NCBI GenBank assembly: GCA_031272655.1
Contig: JAISTJ010000015.1
Span: 1 to 19,088, forward strand
Reading direction: 5' to 3'
Source: Tannerella sp.
Lineage (GTDB): Bacteria > Bacteroidota > Bacteroidia > Bacteroidales > Tannerellaceae
Length of the DNA: 19,088 bases
Part shown: one piece after another, positions 1,196 through 19,088 of the stretch
How positions within the stretch are numbered: position 1 is the first letter of the stretch
How the letters are laid out: every line of letters starts with the position of its first letter
Position numbers and translations under genes: made by a program
Notes under the pieces: model-generated
The model's input: only the letters and a program-made list of their open reading frames with translations
The model's database searches: none
What the model was told of the DNA's origin: nothing

Positions 1196-3574
1196 TCAAT
1201 TGTTAAAATAGACCGAGATGCCAAGTTTTATCAGCATCGGGTTCAGGGGGTAATGTAGCATTGAGAAATAGTAGGCGGGGGTGAAGAGGAGCGAGCCGAC
1301 ATTGTAACCGGCAATGAAGAAACGCGCCTGCTTGAGGCGGAAGTTGGCGTAGGCGTTGATTAGCGGGTAGTCGCCGACGTTCTTTTCTTCCTGTATTTGA
1401 AACTGTTGCGTTGCCGGCTCGTAATACGGGGCGTGGTAGGCAGTGAAGTAATGCGCATCAACGCCGAGTTGGATGTTGAGCACTTTTGCATAAGTGAAAT
1501 CAAGATAAATGTTTGAATATGCGCATATTTGCGGCAGGGGCAGCACCGACTGTTCGCTGCTCAACTGCCATGCAGCCTCGTTTTCCCATCCGAAAGCCTT
1601 GTATCGGAAATCCTGACGGATGCGTGCAGTGATGACTTGCAGGTTGCTCTCGTACTGTTCGGGCGTGCCTTTTGCACCGAAATAAACATAGTTTTGGATA
1701 CTTTGGACGTTGGCGGATAGACGTGTTTGTGTCTGTTCAAGGTCAATCTCGCCGCCGACAAGTACTTTCTGGCTGTTTTTCAGGCTCTTATCCCACCAGA
1801 AATAGCGCGAATGGTGATGACGCTGGTAAAAAGCCGGAGTGAGATTGCGGATGTAACCGAACGCTCGTATAGACGCCTCTTTGCCCATCAGCGGAAATCG
1901 GGTGCGCAGTTCGCCTTCGAGGTTGAACTCGCCGAGGTCGCTGCCTACAATGCACATCTCGCCGCGAGCCTTGTATGTCAGCAGTTCGCCGCGTTGCTTC
2001 GACAGTTCGCCGCCAAGATATGTCGAAAACTCGTCATAGTTCATCGTCCCGCGCACCGAATCGCCAGGCAGCGTAAAACGGCGTTTTTCAAAGTGCACAA
2101 ACGCCGTTACACCAAATTTCGCCCAGTCCTGAAAGCCCTCACGCAACGACAAACCAATAGTGTTCTTGATGTTCCAAGACTTGGTGTAGTCGTTAAGAGT
2201 AGAGTCCGGCGAACCGTAAAGCACTGAATCATTGCGACTTAGATACGCTTCATCAATTCCATTGAAATAAGAAATAAAACGGCGGGAGAATTTTTCGTAT
2301 TCAAAAGTGTGAATAATGCTCGAAACGGGGACGAAAACAGCGTCAATCTCTTCCTCTTCGGGGGCGGTTGCGTCGGGATTTTCGCCGAAAACGTTGGCAG
2401 GGGGCGTTTGAGCGGTTTCTACCGGTTCGGTAAGTTGCCTGTTGCGTTCACGCGGGTCTCCGCCTCCGCCGAGCGCCTCTTCTTCCTCGCGTTTCTTTTT
2501 CTGTTCTTCGAGTTCCTTTTTCAGTTCTTTCTTTTTGGAAGCTTCCTCGCGCTCACGGTCGGTCATCTCGCGGTAGAAACCGAGGTTGTAGCGATGTGTG
2601 AGGTAAAACTGCCCGCCCTTGTTGCGGTTCCACGTGTTGGTGAAGCGCGTGGGGTACGACTGACGGTCAATAGGGCGTTTGTTGTCGGTAAATTCGTCGG
2701 GGTGCGAAACGTAGCGGTCTTCGGTCAAGCCGCCGTTCTCGGTGTTGAGGTAGTTGTAGTTGCGCATGTACACCATCACTTCGTAGCGGTCGGTGCGGTA
2801 ACTCGCAAACGGCCTGTAATACAGCATTTTATTGGCATTGGAAGTGTATTGCCCGCGCACATAAGTGTAATCCCACTCCAAACCGACATTCAGTTGCTTG
2901 CCGAAATTGGACGTAAGCACGCCGTTGAACATCTCTTCGCGATTCTTTTGCCCCCCTGACCTCAGGTAAGTCAGGCGCGTATATGGGTCTTTGACGTCGT
3001 ACCAGAGGGCATTGGTTGGTTTGGTGATATAACAGTTGAAGCCGTTGGCGAAGATGAAATCGCCGTCTTCTTCACGTTCCGAGAAGATGCGGCTTTGGGC
3101 GGGCGAACCGATATTAGCCAGATAGCCGACGGAAAGCCCGCGACCATCTATCAGCGTGCTGTTGAAGAAGTTAAGGCGTTGCGTATCCATCGGGGCGATA
3201 TAGCGTTCGCCGGTTTTTTCGGTTACACGGAAAGCGGTTACGGGGTTAAGTATCTGTTTTGTAGTGTCTTGCATCATGATGCTGTCAGGTATGCTTCCCG
3301 CCATTTGAGACAGCTTGGGAGTGATGCCTTTGCGCCCTACCCTATTGACGGTGGTATCGGTTTCTATGATGCTGTCGGTCTGAATTATGCTGTTGGGGAT
3401 AACATTCAGAGTATCAGGGATTTGCGCCGACAAAGAAAAGGTAAAAAGTAATAACATCGAAATAACCTTAACAAGGCTTGGGAACGATGAGATTGCTTCA
3501 CTGCGTTCACAATGACGGGCGCCGGAAACCTCAGACAGTTTTGGCATAAGTTCAAAACAGGATAAACCATTCAC
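1196..3574 (-). CDS. Putative outer-membrane porin (Bacteroidota Porin_10-like)
   Basis: Predicted outer-membrane beta-barrel of 792 residues as called. A hydrophobic secretion segment ends in LLLFTFSLSAQ at residue 51. The rest is rich in alternating aromatic strands (for example YEVMVYMRNYNYL, FFIAGYNVGSLLF) and ends in ISVYFNN, as expected for a barrel. The general pattern matches the Bacteroidota family annotated as putative porin. Residues about 338-412 form a very charged insert (poly-Lys/Glu, then a Gly/Pro/Glu linker), probably a periplasmic or surface loop. The start is uncertain: GTG 3574 overlaps the stop of the upstream oxidoreductase gene (GTGA), which suggests translational coupling. 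The resulting first 39 residues include a repeat-derived stretch (RHCERSEAISS) and would be an unusual signal peptide. ATG 3457 gives a signal peptide without basic residues. The transported substrate is unknown. Confidence 0.75.
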   Translation of the reverse strand: MNGLSCFELMPKLSEVSGARHCERSEAISSFPSLVKVISMLLLFTFSLSAQIPDTLNVIPNSIIQTDSIIETDTTVNRVGRKGITPKLSQMAGSIPDSIMMQDTTKQILNPVTAFRVTEKTGERYIAPMDTQRLNFFNSTLIDGRGLSVGYLANIGSPAQSRIFSEREEDGDFIFANGFNCYITKPTNALWYDVKDPYTRLTYLRSGGQKNREEMFNGVLTSNFGKQLNVGLEWDYTYVRGQYTSNANKMLYYRPFASYRTDRYEVMVYMRNYNYLNTENGGLTEDRYVSHPDEFTDNKRPIDRQSYPTRFTNTWNRNKGGQFYLTHRYNLGFYREMTDREREEASKKKELKKELEEQKKKREEEEALGGGGDPRERNRQLTEPVETAQTPPANVFGENPDATAPEEEEIDAVFVPVSSIIHTFEYEKFSRRFISYFNGIDEAYLSRNDSVLYGSPDSTLNDYTKSWNIKNTIGLSLREGFQDWAKFGVTAFVHFEKRRFTLPGDSVRGTMNYDEFSTYLGGELSKQRGELLTYKARGEMCIVGSDLGEFNLEGELRTRFPLMGKEASIRAFGYIRNLTPAFYQRHHHSRYFWWDKSLKNSQKVLVGGEIDLEQTQTRLSANVQSIQNYVYFGAKGTPEQYESNLQVITARIRQDFRYKAFGWENEAAWQLSSEQSVLPLPQICAYSNIYLDFTYAKVLNIQLGVDAHYFTAYHAPYYEPATQQFQIQEEKNVGDYPLINAYANFRLKQARFFIAGYNVGSLLFTPAYYFSMLHYPLNPMLIKLGISVYFNN
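3462..3520 (-). repeat. Interspersed repeats at the 5' end of the porin gene
   Basis: Positions 3486-3520 carry one copy of the element also seen in cysteine synthase and after the DJ-1 gene (gattgcttcactgcgttcac, then aatgacg). It is read through as GARHCERSEAISS. Immediately downstream in the gene, 3464-3476 (aaccttaacaagg) matches the palindromic element in the fucosidase gene (10882-10914) and encodes LVKV. Both lie before the secretion segment and probably displaced the original start region. Confidence 0.7.
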
Positions 3575-13464: not shown

Positions 13465-13526
13465 CCGTCATTGCGAACGAAGTGAAGCAATCCAGAAAAA
13501 AAACTCCGGATTGCTTCACTATTTTA
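13465..13526 (+). repeat. Interspersed palindromic element, copy 1 (may act as terminator)
   Basis: CGTCATTGCGAACGA leads into arm AGTGAAGCAATCC (13481-13493), 14-nt loop, and the exact complement GGATTGCTTCACT (13508-13520), then attttat. It lies 28 nt after the DJ-1 stop and could terminate it. An A/T-rich AATTAAG tandem stretch separates it from the gene. Confidence 0.75.
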
Positions 13527-13754: not shown

Positions 13755-13839
13755 CGTCATTTTTTCCGCAAGCGAAAAAGAAAAAGCGAACGAAGTGAAG
13801 CAATCCAGAAAAAAATATTCGGATTGCTTCACTATTTTT
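13755..13839 (+). repeat. Interspersed palindromic element, copy 2, with a nested small palindrome
   Basis: Same as copy 1: CGTCAT (13755-13760), GCGAACGA, arm AGTGAAGCAATCC (13794-13806), 14-nt loop, arm 13821-13833, then T run. It differs by about 24 extra nt (13761-13785) that themselves form a small hairpin (TTTTTCCGC-AA-GCGAAAAAG). Confidence 0.75.
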
Positions 13840-13873: not shown

Positions 13874-13881
13874 TATCTTTG
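13874..13881 (+). promoter_or_regulatory. -7 element of the structured RNA
   Basis: TATCTTTG, an exact TAnnTTTG match. The expected -33 TTTG is not present at 20 nt. The predicted start is near 13888. Confidence 0.55.
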
Positions 13882-13887
13882 CCTCAA

Positions 13888-14204
13888 AATTCGGACTGTC
13901 GGTCCCCGCTGGGGACGAGGGGTAGGTCGGACAGAACGGACAAAGATAAACAGTGTAACTGCACCTTTTAACGGGACGTGTTCCTGAAAAATCCGAAGCA
14001 AGTTACGCTAAGACATTGTGGAAAAGCGTTTAAGGCTTATTATTTTGGTGTTACGAAATCTCTACATTTTCGCAATCCAACCAGGAGTAAGGCAAAACGC
14101 TCACGCTTTTAGCGTGGGCTTTACTCGGATTTTATTGGTGGGTTAGGTAGTCGAGGACCTCGTAACACGGATAAAACATTTAGAGTTTTGTCCGCGCTTT
14201 TTTT
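13888..14204 (+). ncRNA. Structured RNA of about 315 nt with own terminator, family unknown
   Basis: Three separate domains are seen. P1: CTGTC (13896-13900) with GACAG (13930-13934), enclosing GTCCCC-GCT-GGGGAC. P2: AGTGTAACT (13952-13960) with AGTTACGCT (14001-14009), nine pairs with one G-U. P3: GTGTTACGA (14048-14056) with TCGTAACAC (14160-14168), nine perfect pairs. P3 encloses AATCCAACCA (14074-14083) with TGGTGGGTT (14136-14144), GAGTAA with TTACTC, and CTCACGC with GCGTGGG. The 3' end is an intrinsic terminator. No protein frame of note is present. It does not show tmRNA, RNase P, SRP or common riboswitch signatures I know. It is either an independent RNA or a conditional leader of the signalling operon starting 137 nt later. 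Confidence 0.72.
14168..14204 (+). terminator. Intrinsic terminator of the structured RNA
   Basis: CGGATAAAAC (14168-14177) pairs with GTTTTGTCCG (14185-14194), 10 pairs with one G-U, 7-nt loop, then CGC and seven T. Confidence 0.88.
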
Positions 14205-14340
14205 ATGTCCAAACCCGAATGGCGCTGCCCTGCCATTTCCATACGTCCGACGCACAGACAAAATGTGACTGACGATGCTTTGCATAGATAGACTGCTCAT
14301 TTAATATATTAATTTTCAAGATATTATAAATTTAACAAAC
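14205..14340 (+). other. Gap between the RNA terminator and the signalling operon
   Basis: Holds a small inverted repeat AATGGC/GCCATT (14219-14237) and an A/T-rich stretch before the start codon. TAATTTTC near 14310 resembles a -7 element but lacks the final G. No convincing promoter for the operon was found, which leaves open read-through from the RNA. Confidence 0.4.
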
Positions 14341-14937
14341 ATGAACAAGAATTTCAAAAAATGCCCTAACGGGCACTATTATCAACAGGAATTACAGTCG
14401 TGTCCGTTTTGCAAAAATCCTGTTGCGGGCGGTAGCGACGTAAAGACGCGAATTATAGAGACTTCCGGCGTTGTTGATCCGAAAGGAAAAACGGAAGTAT
14501 ATACTGCGGATGCAGGCAAAACGCGGGTTATCGTCGAACCGGTTGCCTCCAAAGTGCAGAATAAAACTCATTTTGTTGACCCACCCGGCACAGACGGCGC
14601 AAGCAACGACAAGGCGACTTACCGCCCTGAACGTATGTTAGTTGGCTGGTTAGTAACATTTTCATACGATCGCTTGGGCGCTGATTTTCGACTGTTTGAA
14701 GGTCGCAACGAGATAGGACGCGATATTGAGTGCAGTATCACTGTGCCCGATAAAACGATGTCTGGCAGGCATGCTACTATTCTTTTCCGTAACGGCAAAT
14801 TCTTGATTAAAGACGAACTGTCATCGCATGGAACGTTTGTAAATCAGGAAGATATTGAACAGCTCACGGTCGAATTGAACGACAATGATGTTATCCGTAT
14901 GGGCGAAACCGATTTCAAATTTAAAACAGCGTTTTAG
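14341..14937 (+). CDS. Zinc-ribbon and FHA domain protein
   Basis: A 198-residue cytoplasmic protein, first gene of the signalling operon. The N-terminus is a probable zinc ribbon (C8, H12, C21, C24 in CPNGH and CPFC). A flexible linker (30-98) carries four similar Thr motifs: KTRIIE, KTEVYT, KTRVIV and KTHFV (T36, T51, T61, T76). The C-terminal FHA domain (119-198) has GRNEIGRD, the phospho-binding SGRHA and SSHGTFVN, so it should bind phosphothreonine peptides. A likely role is substrate and adaptor: the linker threonines are phosphorylated by the operon's kinase and read by its own or the other FHA domains. The stop is 4 nt before the next start, so translation is probably coupled. Confidence 0.85.
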   Translation: MNKNFKKCPNGHYYQQELQSCPFCKNPVAGGSDVKTRIIETSGVVDPKGKTEVYTADAGKTRVIVEPVASKVQNKTHFVDPPGTDGASNDKATYRPERMLVGWLVTFSYDRLGADFRLFEGRNEIGRDIECSITVPDKTMSGRHATILFRNGKFLIKDELSSHGTFVNQEDIEQLTVELNDNDVIRMGETDFKFKTAF

Positions 14938-14941
14938 CATT

Positions 14942-16447
14942 ATGAAAAGGTATTATTACGTAATAATCGCATTTCTCGCCTGCATTGCAAAAGAGACTTT
15001 CGCGCAAACCGTGAGGGGTGATTTTGATCTGACGGCCTACCCCGAAGTTTCATTTGTATGGAACGAATACGACCCTGATATTAAGGATTCTACGCAATTC
15101 TCACTGTCGTCCGACGGCGAAAAAATCCCCGTCCAAATAGCAAATATGCCTTATATTGACACGCTGAAGACGCCGAAAACAATCCTTTTCCTGTGGGAAG
15201 ACCTCAATCATCGCTCTCACGGCATGCAGTCGCAGTTTACTCAAATAGCGCTTTATAACTTCCTAAAAGACTTGCCGCCACAGGGACTGGACAAATTCAA
15301 TGTCGCAGTCTTCGACCGCAAAGGCGGAAACGATACTGGTAACAGCATCCACTCATGGCTCTCAAAATCTTTTACCGACAATCCGCAACAGTTAGCCGAA
15401 GTCGTGCGTACTTACGACAGCAAGTATGATATGTTCTCAAACCAACAAAATTCGGAACTGTATCTCGCTATTGAAGAGGGCATTACACAGTTAGAACGCG
15501 AACTGTCGGACCGTATTAGGGCGATAGTCGTATTCACCGCGGGCAGCAACCTTGACAATTACGGCGGTCGCAACAGTATTGACGAAACCCGCGCCAAAGC
15601 GTTGAAAATTCCTGTTTACGTGGTCAAATACCCTATTAAAGGCTGTGAACACTGCACAAACATTGACCTTATCAGCAAAAACACTAATGGTCTGACAGTT
15701 ACTACCGATAATATCCAAACCGCCACAAATCTGTTGCGTCAATGCTACGACACGATGAGCAAACGGCATCACGGGCAGGATTACCGCATATCATTTAGCG
15801 CACCTTTCAAACGCGACGGCAAACAACACACTGTTATTCTGAATATTAGCGGCAAAGAATATCCGCTTACAATTACTTCACCTGCATTTTCGCTTACACA
15901 ATGGATACGTGAACATATCCTTTATTCTGTTATTATCGGAGTTATATTATTGATAATCTTATTATTAGTTGTTTGGCTGATAATCCGCATCATAAAGAAA
16001 CGCCGCCAAAAGATAATAGAAATCGAAATACGTCTGCAACAGGAATCCGAAGCAAACCGAGCCGCCATCGAAGACTACAAACGCCAACAAGAAGCCAATG
16101 AACAGGAAGCAAAGCAGCGCGAACAGCAGGAACATTTTGCTCGACTTATTCAAACAAAAAACCTCTATCCCCGACTGCAATACTCCATTGACAATAAGGT
16201 GAATACATTCACTGTCAGCAAACCGGAAACGATTATCGGACGCGACGAAACTAATGACCTTGTCCTTCCCAATGACAGTGTTTCGCGACGTCACGCAAAA
16301 ATTATCTTCAATGGCTCTGCATTTGAAATCGAAGACCTCGGCAGTTCTAACCACGTCATAGTCAATGGCGCTTTCGTAACCCGCGCCCAACTCCACAATG
16401 GCGACATCATCGGACTTGGAGAAATTATAGTTTATTTCAATGTTTGA
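14942..16447 (+). CDS. Secreted vWA-like domain, membrane helix and cytoplasmic FHA domain
   Basis: A 501-residue single-pass membrane protein. Signal peptide residues 1-21 (FLACIAKETFA, then Q22), then a vWA-like alpha/beta domain at about 78-270: KTILFLWEDLNHRS, IRAIVVFTAGSN, KIPVYVVKYP. The metal site DxSxS is degenerate (D87-x-N89-x-R91), so metal binding is doubtful. A Cys pair (C235, C238) may form a disulfide or metal site. A small domain (280-312) leads to a strong membrane helix (328-351), a basic stop-transfer KKRRQK, a Glu/Gln-rich coiled coil (360-402) and an FHA domain (409-499) with IIGRDETNDL, VSRRHA and GSSNHVIVN. Topology is therefore vWA in the periplasm, FHA in the cytoplasm. 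ATG 14942 is chosen because it gives the signal peptide. Probably a sensor or scaffold that recruits phosphorylated partners. Confidence 0.82.
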   Translation: MKRYYYVIIAFLACIAKETFAQTVRGDFDLTAYPEVSFVWNEYDPDIKDSTQFSLSSDGEKIPVQIANMPYIDTLKTPKTILFLWEDLNHRSHGMQSQFTQIALYNFLKDLPPQGLDKFNVAVFDRKGGNDTGNSIHSWLSKSFTDNPQQLAEVVRTYDSKYDMFSNQQNSELYLAIEEGITQLERELSDRIRAIVVFTAGSNLDNYGGRNSIDETRAKALKIPVYVVKYPIKGCEHCTNIDLISKNTNGLTVTTDNIQTATNLLRQCYDTMSKRHHGQDYRISFSAPFKRDGKQHTVILNISGKEYPLTITSPAFSLTQWIREHILYSVIIGVILLIILLLVVWLIIRIIKKRRQKIIEIEIRLQQESEANRAAIEDYKRQQEANEQEAKQREQQEHFARLIQTKNLYPRLQYSIDNKVNTFTVSKPETIIGRDETNDLVLPNDSVSRRHAKIIFNGSAFEIEDLGSSNHVIVNGAFVTRAQLHNGDIIGLGEIIVYFNV

Positions 16448-16480
16448 ACTTCTATCTTAAAATGAAATATTAAAATTAAA

Positions 16481-17452
16481 ATGAAACGAATTGACATTGA
16501 GATACTTTCCGCTACCGACGTGGGGCTTGTGCGGGAACAGAACGAAGATAACTGCGGCACAGCCGAAACGCCAAACGGCATGGTATGTGTAGTTTGCGAC
16601 GGAATGGGAGGACATACGGGCGGGCAGGAAGCGTCGCGGATTGCCGTTGATTGCATTATTCAGCATTTGAGCGGCGAAAAGTATGCTGACATCTGCCAAG
16701 CGATACGTGATGCGATGGAATTTGCCAATATGCAGATTCTCGGCACGGCTACCGAACATCCTGAACTGCAAGGCATGGGTACAACAGCCTGCGTATTACT
16801 TATTCAGGACGAACAAGTGTGGATTGCTCATGTGGGCGACAGCCGGATTTACCTTTATGTAGCCAAAGAAAAGCGTTTGCACCGATTGACAAAAGACCAT
16901 TCATTTGTTCAGGGATTGGTTGATCAGGAAATTATTTATCCAGAAGAAGCTGACAATCACCCTGATAGAAACCGTTTAATAAAAGCGTTGGGTATCAAGG
17001 AAGAACCAAATCCCGAAATTCCCGAAAATCCTATTTTGCCGGCCAAAGGCGATATTTTCCTGATATGTAGCGACGGACTTTCCGGAATGGTTTCCGACAG
17101 TCAGATTGAGGTCATACTCGCAGACAGCAAAACAGATATGCAACAAAAAGAGGCGGTTCTGATGTCGGCAGCAAAGTCGGCAGGCGGAACTGACAACATC
17201 ACGTTTCAGTTAATACGAATCATCCACAGCCCGCACCGCAAAAGCGTTTTCGTAAGCAAAAGCCAACCGACAGCCGCAAAAACAGACACACACAAGCAGC
17301 AATGGTTAAAACTTGCAATCCTTGCCGCCATAATCACTGCAAGCATTCTCGCTGGCATCTTGATTGGCAGAAACATTTTTCAACATCCTGATAATTCTGG
17401 TATTCCGAAGCCAGACACAATACCCGATCAACAGGACTCCACAAACAATTAA
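16481..17452 (+). CDS. PP2C-type Ser/Thr phosphatase with C-terminal membrane anchor
   Basis: A 323-residue metal-dependent phosphatase that removes phosphate from Ser/Thr. PP2C motifs in order: REQNEDN (18-24), VCDGMGGH with D40 and G41 (38-45), MGTTA (99-103), HVGDSR with D120 (117-122), LTKDHS (136-141), CSDGLSG with D198 (196-202) and GTDNIT with D238 (236-241). All metal-binding aspartates are present, so it should be active. A short linker and one membrane helix (277-297) follow, then an acidic Pro-rich tail of about 25 residues predicted to face the periplasm. Expected role: to counteract the kinase encoded two genes downstream. Gaps of 33 nt upstream and 13 nt downstream support one operon. 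Confidence 0.92.
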   Translation: MKRIDIEILSATDVGLVREQNEDNCGTAETPNGMVCVVCDGMGGHTGGQEASRIAVDCIIQHLSGEKYADICQAIRDAMEFANMQILGTATEHPELQGMGTTACVLLIQDEQVWIAHVGDSRIYLYVAKEKRLHRLTKDHSFVQGLVDQEIIYPEEADNHPDRNRLIKALGIKEEPNPEIPENPILPAKGDIFLICSDGLSGMVSDSQIEVILADSKTDMQQKEAVLMSAAKSAGGTDNITFQLIRIIHSPHRKSVFVSKSQPTAAKTDTHKQQWLKLAILAAIITASILAGILIGRNIFQHPDNSGIPKPDTIPDQQDSTNN

Positions 17453-17465
17453 TTCTTAATTAGTT

Positions 17466-18200
17466 ATGAAAATAATAACAATAGGCAGGGATACTGACAA
17501 CGACATTCAGGTCAGCGATAGCAAGGCGTCGCGCCACCATGTACAGATAATCAGCAATGGCGGCGAGTTCCGCATCGTTGATTTAAACTCAAGCAATGGC
17601 ACATTCGTTAACAATTTCAAGATTAACCACGAGACTGTCTTGCAGGCGAACGACATTGTGCGTGTCGGGAATACTGTATTGCCCTGGCAAACATATTTCC
17701 GAGATGGAAAGAAGCCAAACAGCAGACTTTGGATAGCGACGGCGGCGGCAGTGGTTTTGGCTTTGATTATCGGTATCTATTTCTTGAGCAAACAGAGCGC
17801 TGATAAAACGCCTGATAAACAAATCGTTAAGATGCACGAGAAAAATGGTGTGCGATGTATTCCGGTGAAAATCAACGGACAGGAACTTGATTTTGTATTC
17901 GATACCGGCGCCGGTAGCATCTGTATTTCTACGCTTGAAGCGCTGGTGCTTGTCAAAAACGGCACGCTTGTCGAAAACGACGTCATCGGTTCAGACCCGT
18001 TCATGGACGCTTCAGGTAATGTGTCGGTCGGGACACGTATTAACCTGAAAACTGTGCAGATTGGCGACAGAACGCTACGAAACATCGAAGCAACAGTCAT
18101 CGAAAATCCCAATGCAGTGTGTCTGCTTGGACAAACTGTCCTTTCCCGATTCGGAAAATATACTATAGATAATCAGCGAGGTGAGATAATATTTGAATAA
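17466..18200 (+). CDS. FHA domain, membrane helix and retropepsin-like aspartic protease
   Basis: A 244-residue fusion. The FHA domain starts at residue 1 (ITIGRDTDNDI, ASRHHV, NSSNGTFVN) and ends near 75. One membrane helix (88-108) follows. The C-terminal half (about 125-244) is a clan AA aspartic protease of retropepsin type: DFVFDTGAGSICIS with catalytic D146, and the late signature CLLGQTVLSRFGKYTID (219-234). Single-lobe enzymes of this type work as homodimers. No signal peptide is present, so the N-terminal FHA should be cytoplasmic and the protease periplasmic. The design suggests that phosphothreonine binding inside could bring two protease lobes together outside. The substrate is unknown. 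I do not recall this exact domain order as a described family. Confidence 0.85.
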   Translation: MKIITIGRDTDNDIQVSDSKASRHHVQIISNGGEFRIVDLNSSNGTFVNNFKINHETVLQANDIVRVGNTVLPWQTYFRDGKKPNSRLWIATAAAVVLALIIGIYFLSKQSADKTPDKQIVKMHEKNGVRCIPVKINGQELDFVFDTGAGSICISTLEALVLVKNGTLVENDVIGSDPFMDASGNVSVGTRINLKTVQIGDRTLRNIEATVIENPNAVCLLGQTVLSRFGKYTIDNQRGEIIFE

Positions 18201-18216
18201 CGATAATTATAAAAAA

Positions 18217-19088
18217 ATGGAAAATAAGGAATTACAAACAGGCATAACACTACAACAAGGTAAATATACTATTGAGCGCGTGATTGGGTCGGGCGGGTTT
18301 GGCATCACGTACTATGCGCGGCATAATGTGTTCGGGCATAATTACGCTGTAAAAGAGTTTTTTATCAGCGGCTACTGCGTGCGCAATACGGCGAATAAAA
18401 CCGTGATGCTGCAAGGTATGACGGACGACGTTTACGGAAAATACCTGCAAAAGTTTATTGACGAAGCGGGTACGCTGGCTCGTCTCGACCACCCGAACAT
18501 CGTGAAAGTAACCGACATCTTCCGCGAAAACGGCACGGCTTATATCGTGATGAACTTCATCGAAGGGCAAACCTTGCAGAAACTTGTTGACCGGCAGGGA
18601 CGCCTGCCTTACGAGACTGCCGTCAACTACATCGCCCAGATAGCCGAAGCCGTTGACTATATCCACAGCCGTAATATCCTGCATCGCGACATCAAACCTG
18701 AAAATATCATTATCACTCCCGACAACCGCGCCGTCCTGCTCGATTTCGGCTCCGCCCGCGAGTTTGTGCACGACAAAACGCAGATGCACACCTCAATACT
18801 GACGCCCGGCTATGCGCCACCCGAACAAGATTCTAACACCAGCCGCAAAGGCGCATACAGCGACATCTATTCGCTTGGCGCAACCTTCTATTTTGCCCTG
18901 ACTGCCACAATGCCGACCGACGCGGCAGCCCGCAGTTTTGAAGCCCTGCCCGAACCGAAAATGCTCGTTCCAAACCTCCCCGACGAAGCGAACCGCACGA
19001 TAATGAAGGCAATGCAAACAAAACCCGAAGACCGCTACCAGCATGTTAACGAGTTTATGGGGGATTTGCTGAATGTCGGGACGGGAAA
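18217..19088 (+). CDS. Hanks-type Ser/Thr protein kinase, 3' end cut by window edge
   Basis: The frame is open from ATG 18217 to the edge (290 codons) and covers a whole kinase domain. Visible: Gly-rich loop IGSGGFG (23-29), catalytic Lys in YAVKEF (K46), the helix C Glu in FIDEAGTLARL (E83), HRDIKPEN (156-163), DFG (176-178), activation segment with TPGYAPPEQ (196-204) and SDIYSLGATFY (215-225). All catalytic residues are kept, so it should be active. HRD has the Arg typical of kinases controlled by activation-loop phosphorylation. Anything after the kinase domain (membrane helix, sensor repeats) lies outside the window. It starts 16 nt after the protease gene. Its expected partners are the FHA proteins and PP2C phosphatase of the same operon. 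Confidence 0.94.
   Translation, partial: MENKELQTGITLQQGKYTIERVIGSGGFGITYYARHNVFGHNYAVKEFFISGYCVRNTANKTVMLQGMTDDVYGKYLQKFIDEAGTLARLDHPNIVKVTDIFRENGTAYIVMNFIEGQTLQKLVDRQGRLPYETAVNYIAQIAEAVDYIHSRNILHRDIKPENIIITPDNRAVLLDFGSAREFVHDKTQMHTSILTPGYAPPEQDSNTSRKGAYSDIYSLGATFYFALTATMPTDAAARSFEALPEPKMLVPNLPDEANRTIMKAMQTKPEDRYQHVNEFMGDLLNVGTG

Follow-up and report, generated by a model that had tools for sequence, protein, structure and literature searches.

A candidate membrane phospho-threonine signalling cassette with an FHA-retropepsin fusion protein in Tannerella

In the threonine phosphorylation pathway of the type VI secretion system (T6SS), PpkA, PppA and Fha serve as kinase, PP2C phosphatase and forkhead-associated (FHA) reader, and the TerY-P triad unites a von Willebrand factor A (vWA) protein, a PP2C and a kinase in sets that need not include terD. 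OdhI and GarA join an N-terminal region with a phosphorylatable threonine to a C-terminal FHA domain, Rv1747 is an FHA-ABC exporter accompanied by its kinase, and the bacterial retropepsins include PerP of Caulobacter. The outputs known for bacterial kinase/FHA systems are mostly cytoplasmic or concern secretion. According to PMC3953482, FHA binding to the phospho-threonine (phospho-Thr) of a membrane protein turns on T6SS secretion; PMC11341870 presents KKP as a kinase-phosphatase defence module, with the modules filtered by CSD and FHA domains on the kinases, and PMC7159879 names a MoxR AAA+ ATPase as the partner gene in MoxR-vWA ternary systems. Here we describe five same-strand genes at positions 14341-19088 of a 19,088-nucleotide stretch of Tannerella sp. 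DNA, the entire contig JAISTJ010000015.1 (G000:C150; hereafter the window), which can tentatively be read as a membrane phospho-Thr signalling cassette.

The genes (Table 1) succeed one another at gaps of 4, 33, 13 and 16 nt in the order zinc-ribbon/FHA adaptor, vWA-transmembrane (TM)-FHA, PP2C-TM, FHA-TM-retropepsin and Ser/Thr kinase. By Pfam, genes 1, 2 and 4 encode FHA domains and gene 3 a PP2C domain, gene 4 also has an aspartic protease domain, and gene 5 codes for a protein kinase; one TM segment each is predicted for the vWA, PP2C and FHA-retropepsin proteins. Domains, gaps and gene order agree with the compact five-gene set proposed earlier from the letters alone, without database searches (the sequence-only reading). 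The cassette represents a kinase/PP2C/FHA pathway whose FHA outputs span the membrane and include a protease, in a variant that we did not find in the literature: among the titles judged, which covered part of the matches and mostly open papers, none describes the cassette or an FHA-retropepsin fusion, and no paper was found that contains both 'forkhead-associated' and 'retropepsin'.

Table 1. Features of the five-gene cassette, in window coordinates
Feature	Position	Strand	Evidence
Zinc-ribbon / variable Thr-motif linker / FHA adaptor, 198 aa (gene 1)	14341..14937	+	FHA Pfam E 1.2e-17; Cys/His pattern
Stretch with codons of conserved linker T51 (14491-14493), T61 (14521-14523) and T76 (14566-14568), candidate phospho-Thr docking sites	14491..14568	+	Alignment, motif count
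vWA ectodomain - TM - coiled coil - FHA protein, 501 aa (gene 2)	14942..16447	+	AF2 pLDDT 89.2; vWA fold ~71-277; FHA 409-501; TM 330-348
vWA domain, residues 71-277, degenerate metal site, flanked by beta strands 24-69 and 279-312	15152..15772	+	AF2 model, fold matches, motif
PP2C phosphatase - TM (278-296) - short tail (gene 3)	16481..17452	+	PP2C_2 E 2.4e-17; NF033484
FHA - TM (90-108) - retropepsin protein, 244 aa (gene 4)	17466..18200	+	FHA E 6.5e-20; gag-asp_proteas E 1.4e-15; AF2, Foldseek
Catalytic motif DTGA, residues 146-149	17901..17912	+	Invariant in 41/41 aligned, window included
Ser/Thr kinase, first 290 codons, cut by contig end (gene 5)	18217..19086	+	Pkinase E 1.7e-45

With the T6SS pathway the cassette shares a kinase, a PP2C and an FHA reader, but its readers bear a TM segment with a vWA or protease domain. 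Measured by the TagH model TIGR03354 it is not a T6SS FHA set, as the three FHA proteins score 42.1, 38.6 and 35.7 bits against a cut-off of 120.25; TssC (PF17541) is found in none of 15 cassette genomes, nor in any control genome, the window's own genome being 72.5% complete. The vWA, PP2C and kinase set recalls TerY-P, from which the cassette differs in that its vWA domain is predicted to be extracytoplasmic and is fused via a TM segment to an FHA domain. TerD (PF02342) is present on the cassette contig in none of these 15 draft genomes and elsewhere in two. Of the earlier statement that no secretion or ter genes are seen here, the part on ter genes holds by the TerD model, and T6SS FHA membership finds no support by the TagH model. 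Like OdhI and GarA, which stand near the top of the sequence and fold matches in the PDB for the FHA domain of the vWA protein, the adaptor places a threonine region before a C-terminal FHA domain, but it adds a zinc ribbon and several Thr motifs, and the OdhI model NF041660 yields 29.8 (adaptor), 42.0 and 42.8 bits against a cut-off of 200. The retropepsin fold with DTGA is common to gene 4 and to bacterial retropepsins such as ApRick of Rickettsia; in gene 4, however, it is fused to a predicted cytoplasmic FHA reader. The PP2C with kinases (a PP2C and two kinases in the related loci L074, L077 and L078) resembles KKP, whereas in the cassette the FHA domains sit on separate proteins, and Pfam finds no CSD or FHA domain in the 290 kinase residues visible before the contig ends, past which a second kinase could be encoded. 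FHA-ABC2 proteins reminiscent of Rv1747 occur in the related cassettes L077 and L085, but no FHA-ABC exporter is seen beside the window's cassette up to the contig end inside the kinase. As for the MoxR-vWA systems, a Pfam scan of the five cassette proteins, the kinase as far as the contig end, gives no AAA+ match.

The FHA-retropepsin protein joins an FHA domain (residues 4-68) to a retropepsin domain (~124-244), whose fold, with one catalytic half-site per chain, is apparent from sequence or model. The best Foldseek match of the model is the Rickettsia retropepsin 5c9f (E 2.2e-9); the clan AA retropepsin family PF13975 is matched at 58.1 bits against a gathering cut-off of 28.2, and the clan AA subfamily TIGR02281 at 50.5 bits, below its cut-off of 57.95. 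A database search returned 70 full-length proteins including the window's own, the other 69 at 51-68% identity, and all 69 carry FHA and aspartic-protease domains in precomputed Pfam annotation. When the window's protein was aligned with 40 of these 69 (from the best 120 of 157 homologues), G7, R8, S22, R23, N44 and G45 of the FHA domain proved invariant, and 40 of the 41 chains have a single DTG. Because no signal precedes the FHA domain and the net charge is +3 before the TM segment and +1 after it, the FHA domain should face the cytoplasm, which would place the retropepsin domain in the periplasm. Phage carriage of the protease was considered and set aside: no match was found among 50,697 phage records, a collection that may lack entries close to the window's own genome. 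Genomes of the same taxonomic order match the protease query at E 1e-20 in 16 of 393 cases, all but the window's own covering residues 95 onward only. In a genome of the same genus (L003, G020:C414), a piece 75% identical to residues 156-244 with no FHA domain in frame is a possible remnant.

Named homologue records come from Tannerella, Prevotellaceae and other Bacteroidales or Bacteroidia, and a scan of genome contigs with two peptide patterns gave eight loci. The five genes recur in identical order in a Prevotellaceae metagenome-assembled genome (L033) at 49, 49, 56, 58 and 70% identity, and L032 has them together with an extra kinase and intervening genes. Eight loci, the window included, have a fused or apparently fused protease gene, L037 being an unfused relative; in L038 and L039 the contig edge leaves just the 3' end of this gene, and in L036 its frame is broken. 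A kinase lies directly downstream of the protease gene in five of the eight (the window, L032, L033, L038 and L039) and a PP2C directly upstream in four of the six where this position is visible (the window, L032, L033 and L036). Between the kinase and FHA-retropepsin genes of L032 (6507-7589) and L035 (7860-9287), a protein has an entire ribosomal L30 or L17 domain at its start, followed by other sequence, HNH-like below cut-off in L035; these fusions may be real or assembly effects.

The vWA gene is sparsely distributed: counting the window's own genome, it occurs in two of 41 genomes of the genus, in 13 of 393 of the order (profile from the vWA alignment) and in two of 395 (single sequence) or two of 390 (profile) in samples of the phylum, the one extra genome being G546, placed outside the order. 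Misses are likely in the order and phylum scans, since at most three first-look candidates were scored per genome. Reading the window and 14 further regions, we find that a PP2C immediately follows the vWA gene in 11 of 13 visible cases (not in G176 and G345; the contig ends in G428 and G108), a zinc-ribbon/FHA gene directly upstream in nine of 14 (contig start in G094) and a kinase among the next three genes in ten of 12. PP2C_2 has only 32 matches across the 15 cassette genomes, so that adjacency of PP2C and vWA genes by chance would be rare. Judged by equal longest-contig size, 16 of the 70 protease proteins appear on the same contig as a near vWA protein, and 13 of 22 on contigs of at least 8 kb, the window being counted in both; of these, L032 and L033 alone were read, and two of the sizes also equal distant vWA list entries, perhaps by coincidence.

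In the five distant cassettes that have an FHA-TM slot protein (L074, L075, L077, L078 and L085), this protein is in every case the locus's best match to the FHA domain of gene 4. Its C-terminus varies, with Pfam giving RDD in L074 and L077 and DUF4328 in L075, and inspection by eye an RDD-like part in L078 and, for L085, a short tail. Since the slot FHA domains best match that of gene 4 while the C-termini differ, the retropepsin appears to fill a position otherwise filled elsewhere; to judge from these matches, the cassette is broader than the five genes and contains an FHA-TM-X slot whose content varies, the retropepsin being the clade-specific X. The sequence-only reading had envisaged a five-gene module with an FHA-protease fusion and had proposed a look for conserved co-occurrence, which L033 and the PP2C genes following the vWA gene now provide. 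Its module is a real conserved signalling unit, but the five genes are one form of the wider cassette; the fusion, with its 69 other full-length homologues and its FHA and DTGA signatures, is a true conserved family, but one that occupies the slot in its clade.

Eight loci with unfused retropepsin relatives were read, at 44-57% identity to the window's domain; the proteins are mostly small and, by eye, lipoprotein-like. In five of the eight (L037, L040, L041, L043 and L044) the retropepsin gene lies directly downstream of a gene starting with a MotB/ZorB-like segment; the four tested (L037, L040, L041 and L043) match PADLOC ZorB with best E values of 2.9e-11 to 3.1e-14, and the gene preceding the ZorB-like gene in L037 matches PADLOC ZorA (2.8e-8). 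An SNase gene comes next in L041 and L042, the latter cut upstream, and L004 and L045 have no ZorB-like neighbour. The loci with ZorB-like genes are a possible Zorya-like envelope system with a protease, and they hint that the retropepsin family is used repeatedly at the envelope.

The adaptor linker provides the second strand of the argument. Aligned with 53 others (from the best 120 of 420 homologues), the window's adaptor shows an invariant C8, H12 and C21 and a C24 kept in 53 of 54 sequences; Pfam has no match for this part, and it is the Cys/His pattern that underlies the label zinc ribbon. Though the linker is hypervariable, its three conserved Thr are kept in 53, 53 and 54 of the 54 sequences, the last within an N-R-T-V-F-G-D-E consensus. 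The linkers of 108 of 120 listed proteins (12 were unrecognised by the pattern and dropped) contain 133 copies of [KR]T.[VILMFA][YFVILM], compared with 5.2 (sd 2.4) after shuffling. For the looser [KR]T..[YFVILM] there are 156 copies, and for the form with Ser in place of Thr four, in linkers holding 969 Thr and 699 Ser. Seven distant adaptors have 16 linker motifs against 0.2 expected, with at most four per protein, and the variation in copy number among them suggests selection on the motif. These features fit a putative multisite phospho-Thr docking array, or scaffold. The sequence-only reading had supposed that cytoplasmic Thr phosphorylation controls periplasmic sensing and proteolysis; for such control of the protease, which would be a further step, the Thr array is indirect support.

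The ectodomain of gene 2 has a clear vWA fold in the predicted structure, in keeping with the vWA-like domain supposed earlier, even though the Pfam scan missed it. The canonical metal-ion-dependent adhesion site (MIDAS) reads DxSxS...T...D; a canonical metal-binding vWA was ruled out on the motif, which here is WED(L/M) without the two Ser. In the alignment of the window's protein with 55 others (from the best 120 of 163 homologues), the third-loop Asp of the MIDAS is replaced by Ala in 49 of 56, with positions mapped by eye. Nine plasmid records match the vWA protein; the matches are confined to the FHA part, and none extends over 80% of the protein.

The phosphatase passes the Stp1/IreP PP2C model NF033484 (239.1 bits, cut-off 230). 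LysM domains in long PP2C tails were an impression by eye, discarded after Pfam gave PP2C alone in the one tested (L074). The kinase, truncated by the contig end, reaches 198.6 of 450 bits with the PknB PASTA kinase model NF033483; its homologues extend to a TM segment, found in five of five tested, and to a variable C-terminal part, with SH3 in L039, WG and FGE-like domains in L032, BACON just below cut-off in L038 and no recognised domain in L033 and L034. In PADLOC the kinase matches 37 families, of which mad6 (3.8e-60) and PD-T4-6 score best, and the candidate family PDC-M21C is matched by the PP2C (6.9e-13); no match is obtained for the adaptor, the vWA protein or the protease protein.

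A scheme can be drawn in which the kinase would phosphorylate the repeated [KR]T motifs of the adaptor linker and thereby create a multivalent phospho-Thr scaffold, on which the FHA-TM proteins would dock from the cytoplasm; clustering of FHA-TM-retropepsin chains would then pair the half-sites of two chains into an active protease at the periplasmic face. Retropepsins act as dimers, as exemplified by HIV protease, and it is for this reason that clustering would switch on proteolysis. The vWA-TM-FHA protein may be a receptor or ligand-holding arm of the same cluster, which the PP2C would reset. The principle would be a phospho-gathering of interchangeable membrane outputs, an idea drawn from relatives in which RDD or another membrane part is attached to this reader arm. 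We regard the scheme as a whole, with its conjectured steps of phosphorylation, binding and activation, as the likeliest of the readings considered but as tentative; a general inside-out switch, in which a cytoplasmic phospho-Thr scaffold assembles a retrovirus-like protease dimer across the membrane and the FHA-TM arm is a plug for swappable outputs, is more doubtful.

Several observations weigh against this picture. It is built on sequence and models, with dimer activation a proposal; the AlphaFold2 (AF2) model of gene 4 (pLDDT 82.2, pTM 0.49) is of a single chain, and the topology relies on hydropathy and a by-eye reading of signal peptides. The linker homologues are related, so that motif counts are not independent samples, and the adaptor's own FHA domain has SHGT where canonical FHA domains have NGT, which means that the readers need not all be alike. 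Gene content varies as well: L034 and L035 have the protease gene and, separated from it by other genes, an upstream kinase, but neither a vWA nor a PP2C gene in the stretch examined; L036 has a PP2C and the broken protease frame and no kinase or vWA gene in its stretch; the adaptor is not upstream of the vWA gene in G345, G279, G350, G410 and G079; and in G176 and G345 the vWA gene is without an adjoining PP2C or kinase.

The same parts could instead work from the outside in, with the vWA and retropepsin domains sensing or processing an envelope protein and clustering outside driving trans-phosphorylation by the kinase, so that the protease is a signal processor and not an output. vWA domains often bind ligands, and the TM segments and varying C-termini of the kinase homologues suit such a model; it leaves unexplained, however, why the protease is fused with an FHA reader and not with the kinase, as well as the Thr array of the adaptor, and we consider it unlikely. 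That common signalling genes happen to adjoin by chance in this one genome is exceedingly improbable and in effect ruled out by the conserved gene order, which is the same in L033 and recurs in related forms in several families and in G546, outside the order.

A role in defence or conflict, with the cassette sensing envelope attack such as by phage and the periplasmic protease as effector, would be in line with the patchy distribution in the genus (the vWA gene in two of 41 genomes, the window's own included, and the possible protease remnant in G020), with the ZorB-like genes that adjoin several unfused retropepsin relatives, with the PADLOC matches of kinase and PP2C, and with the precedent of KKP (PMC11341870). 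In L036, moreover, an AbiEii-like gene (1318-2747; 147 bits, cut-off 22.5), with an AbiEi-like match just below cut-off, lies directly upstream of the PP2C and FHA-retropepsin genes. Yet PADLOC finds nothing in the other three proteins, its kinase matches may be generic because they spread over many kinase families, and the protease is without a match in the phage collection; this role, too, seems improbable. Quite unlikely in our view is control of envelope export, in which envelope maintenance or an ABC exporter bearing FHA domains would be under the cassette's regulation and exported substrates would be trimmed by the protease. An FHA x3-ABC2 protein stands directly upstream in L077, an FHA x2-ABC2 protein is encoded in L085, an FHA gene of similar appearance occurs in L078 and an ABC2 end upstream in L076, and M48 peptidases lie near the cassette in L075 and L085; against this, the open reading frames (ORFs) of L032 and L033 include no further FHA gene, hence no FHA-ABC exporter, and the right flank of the window lies beyond the contig end.

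Just upstream of the cassette, at ~13990-14206 (+), lies a structured RNA-like element, related copies of which occur at nine places in seven of 41 same-genus genomes, the window's own included. Its fold z is -2.66, with two-sided changes in 15 of 49 predicted pairs among nine sequences; no Rfam match exceeds the gathering threshold, with chance-like ones only at E up to 1. The element is not tied to the cassette, as G428 has cassette genes and no copy. Two nearby signals, a TANNTTTG site at 13874 and, at 14168-14194, a terminator-like end, are weak, because TANNTTTG sites (23 versus 14.8) and terminator-like sites (6 versus 6.2) are little or no commoner than in shuffles. The repeat GCGAACGAAGTGAAGCAATCC, with zero copies expected by chance, is found at 13473-13493, 13786-13806 and 3490-3510 (two exact copies, and one with three mismatches inside an ORF); of 96 fetched loci, four contain exact matches, and each of the four comes from the window's own contig.

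New in this cassette are the repeated Thr motifs of the adaptor linker, an array that pinpoints exact candidate sites. To judge from the FHA-TM-X slot, a single reader arm may serve outputs that differ between lineages, and with a conserved FHA-TM-protease a phospho-signal could take effect beyond the inner membrane via proteolysis.

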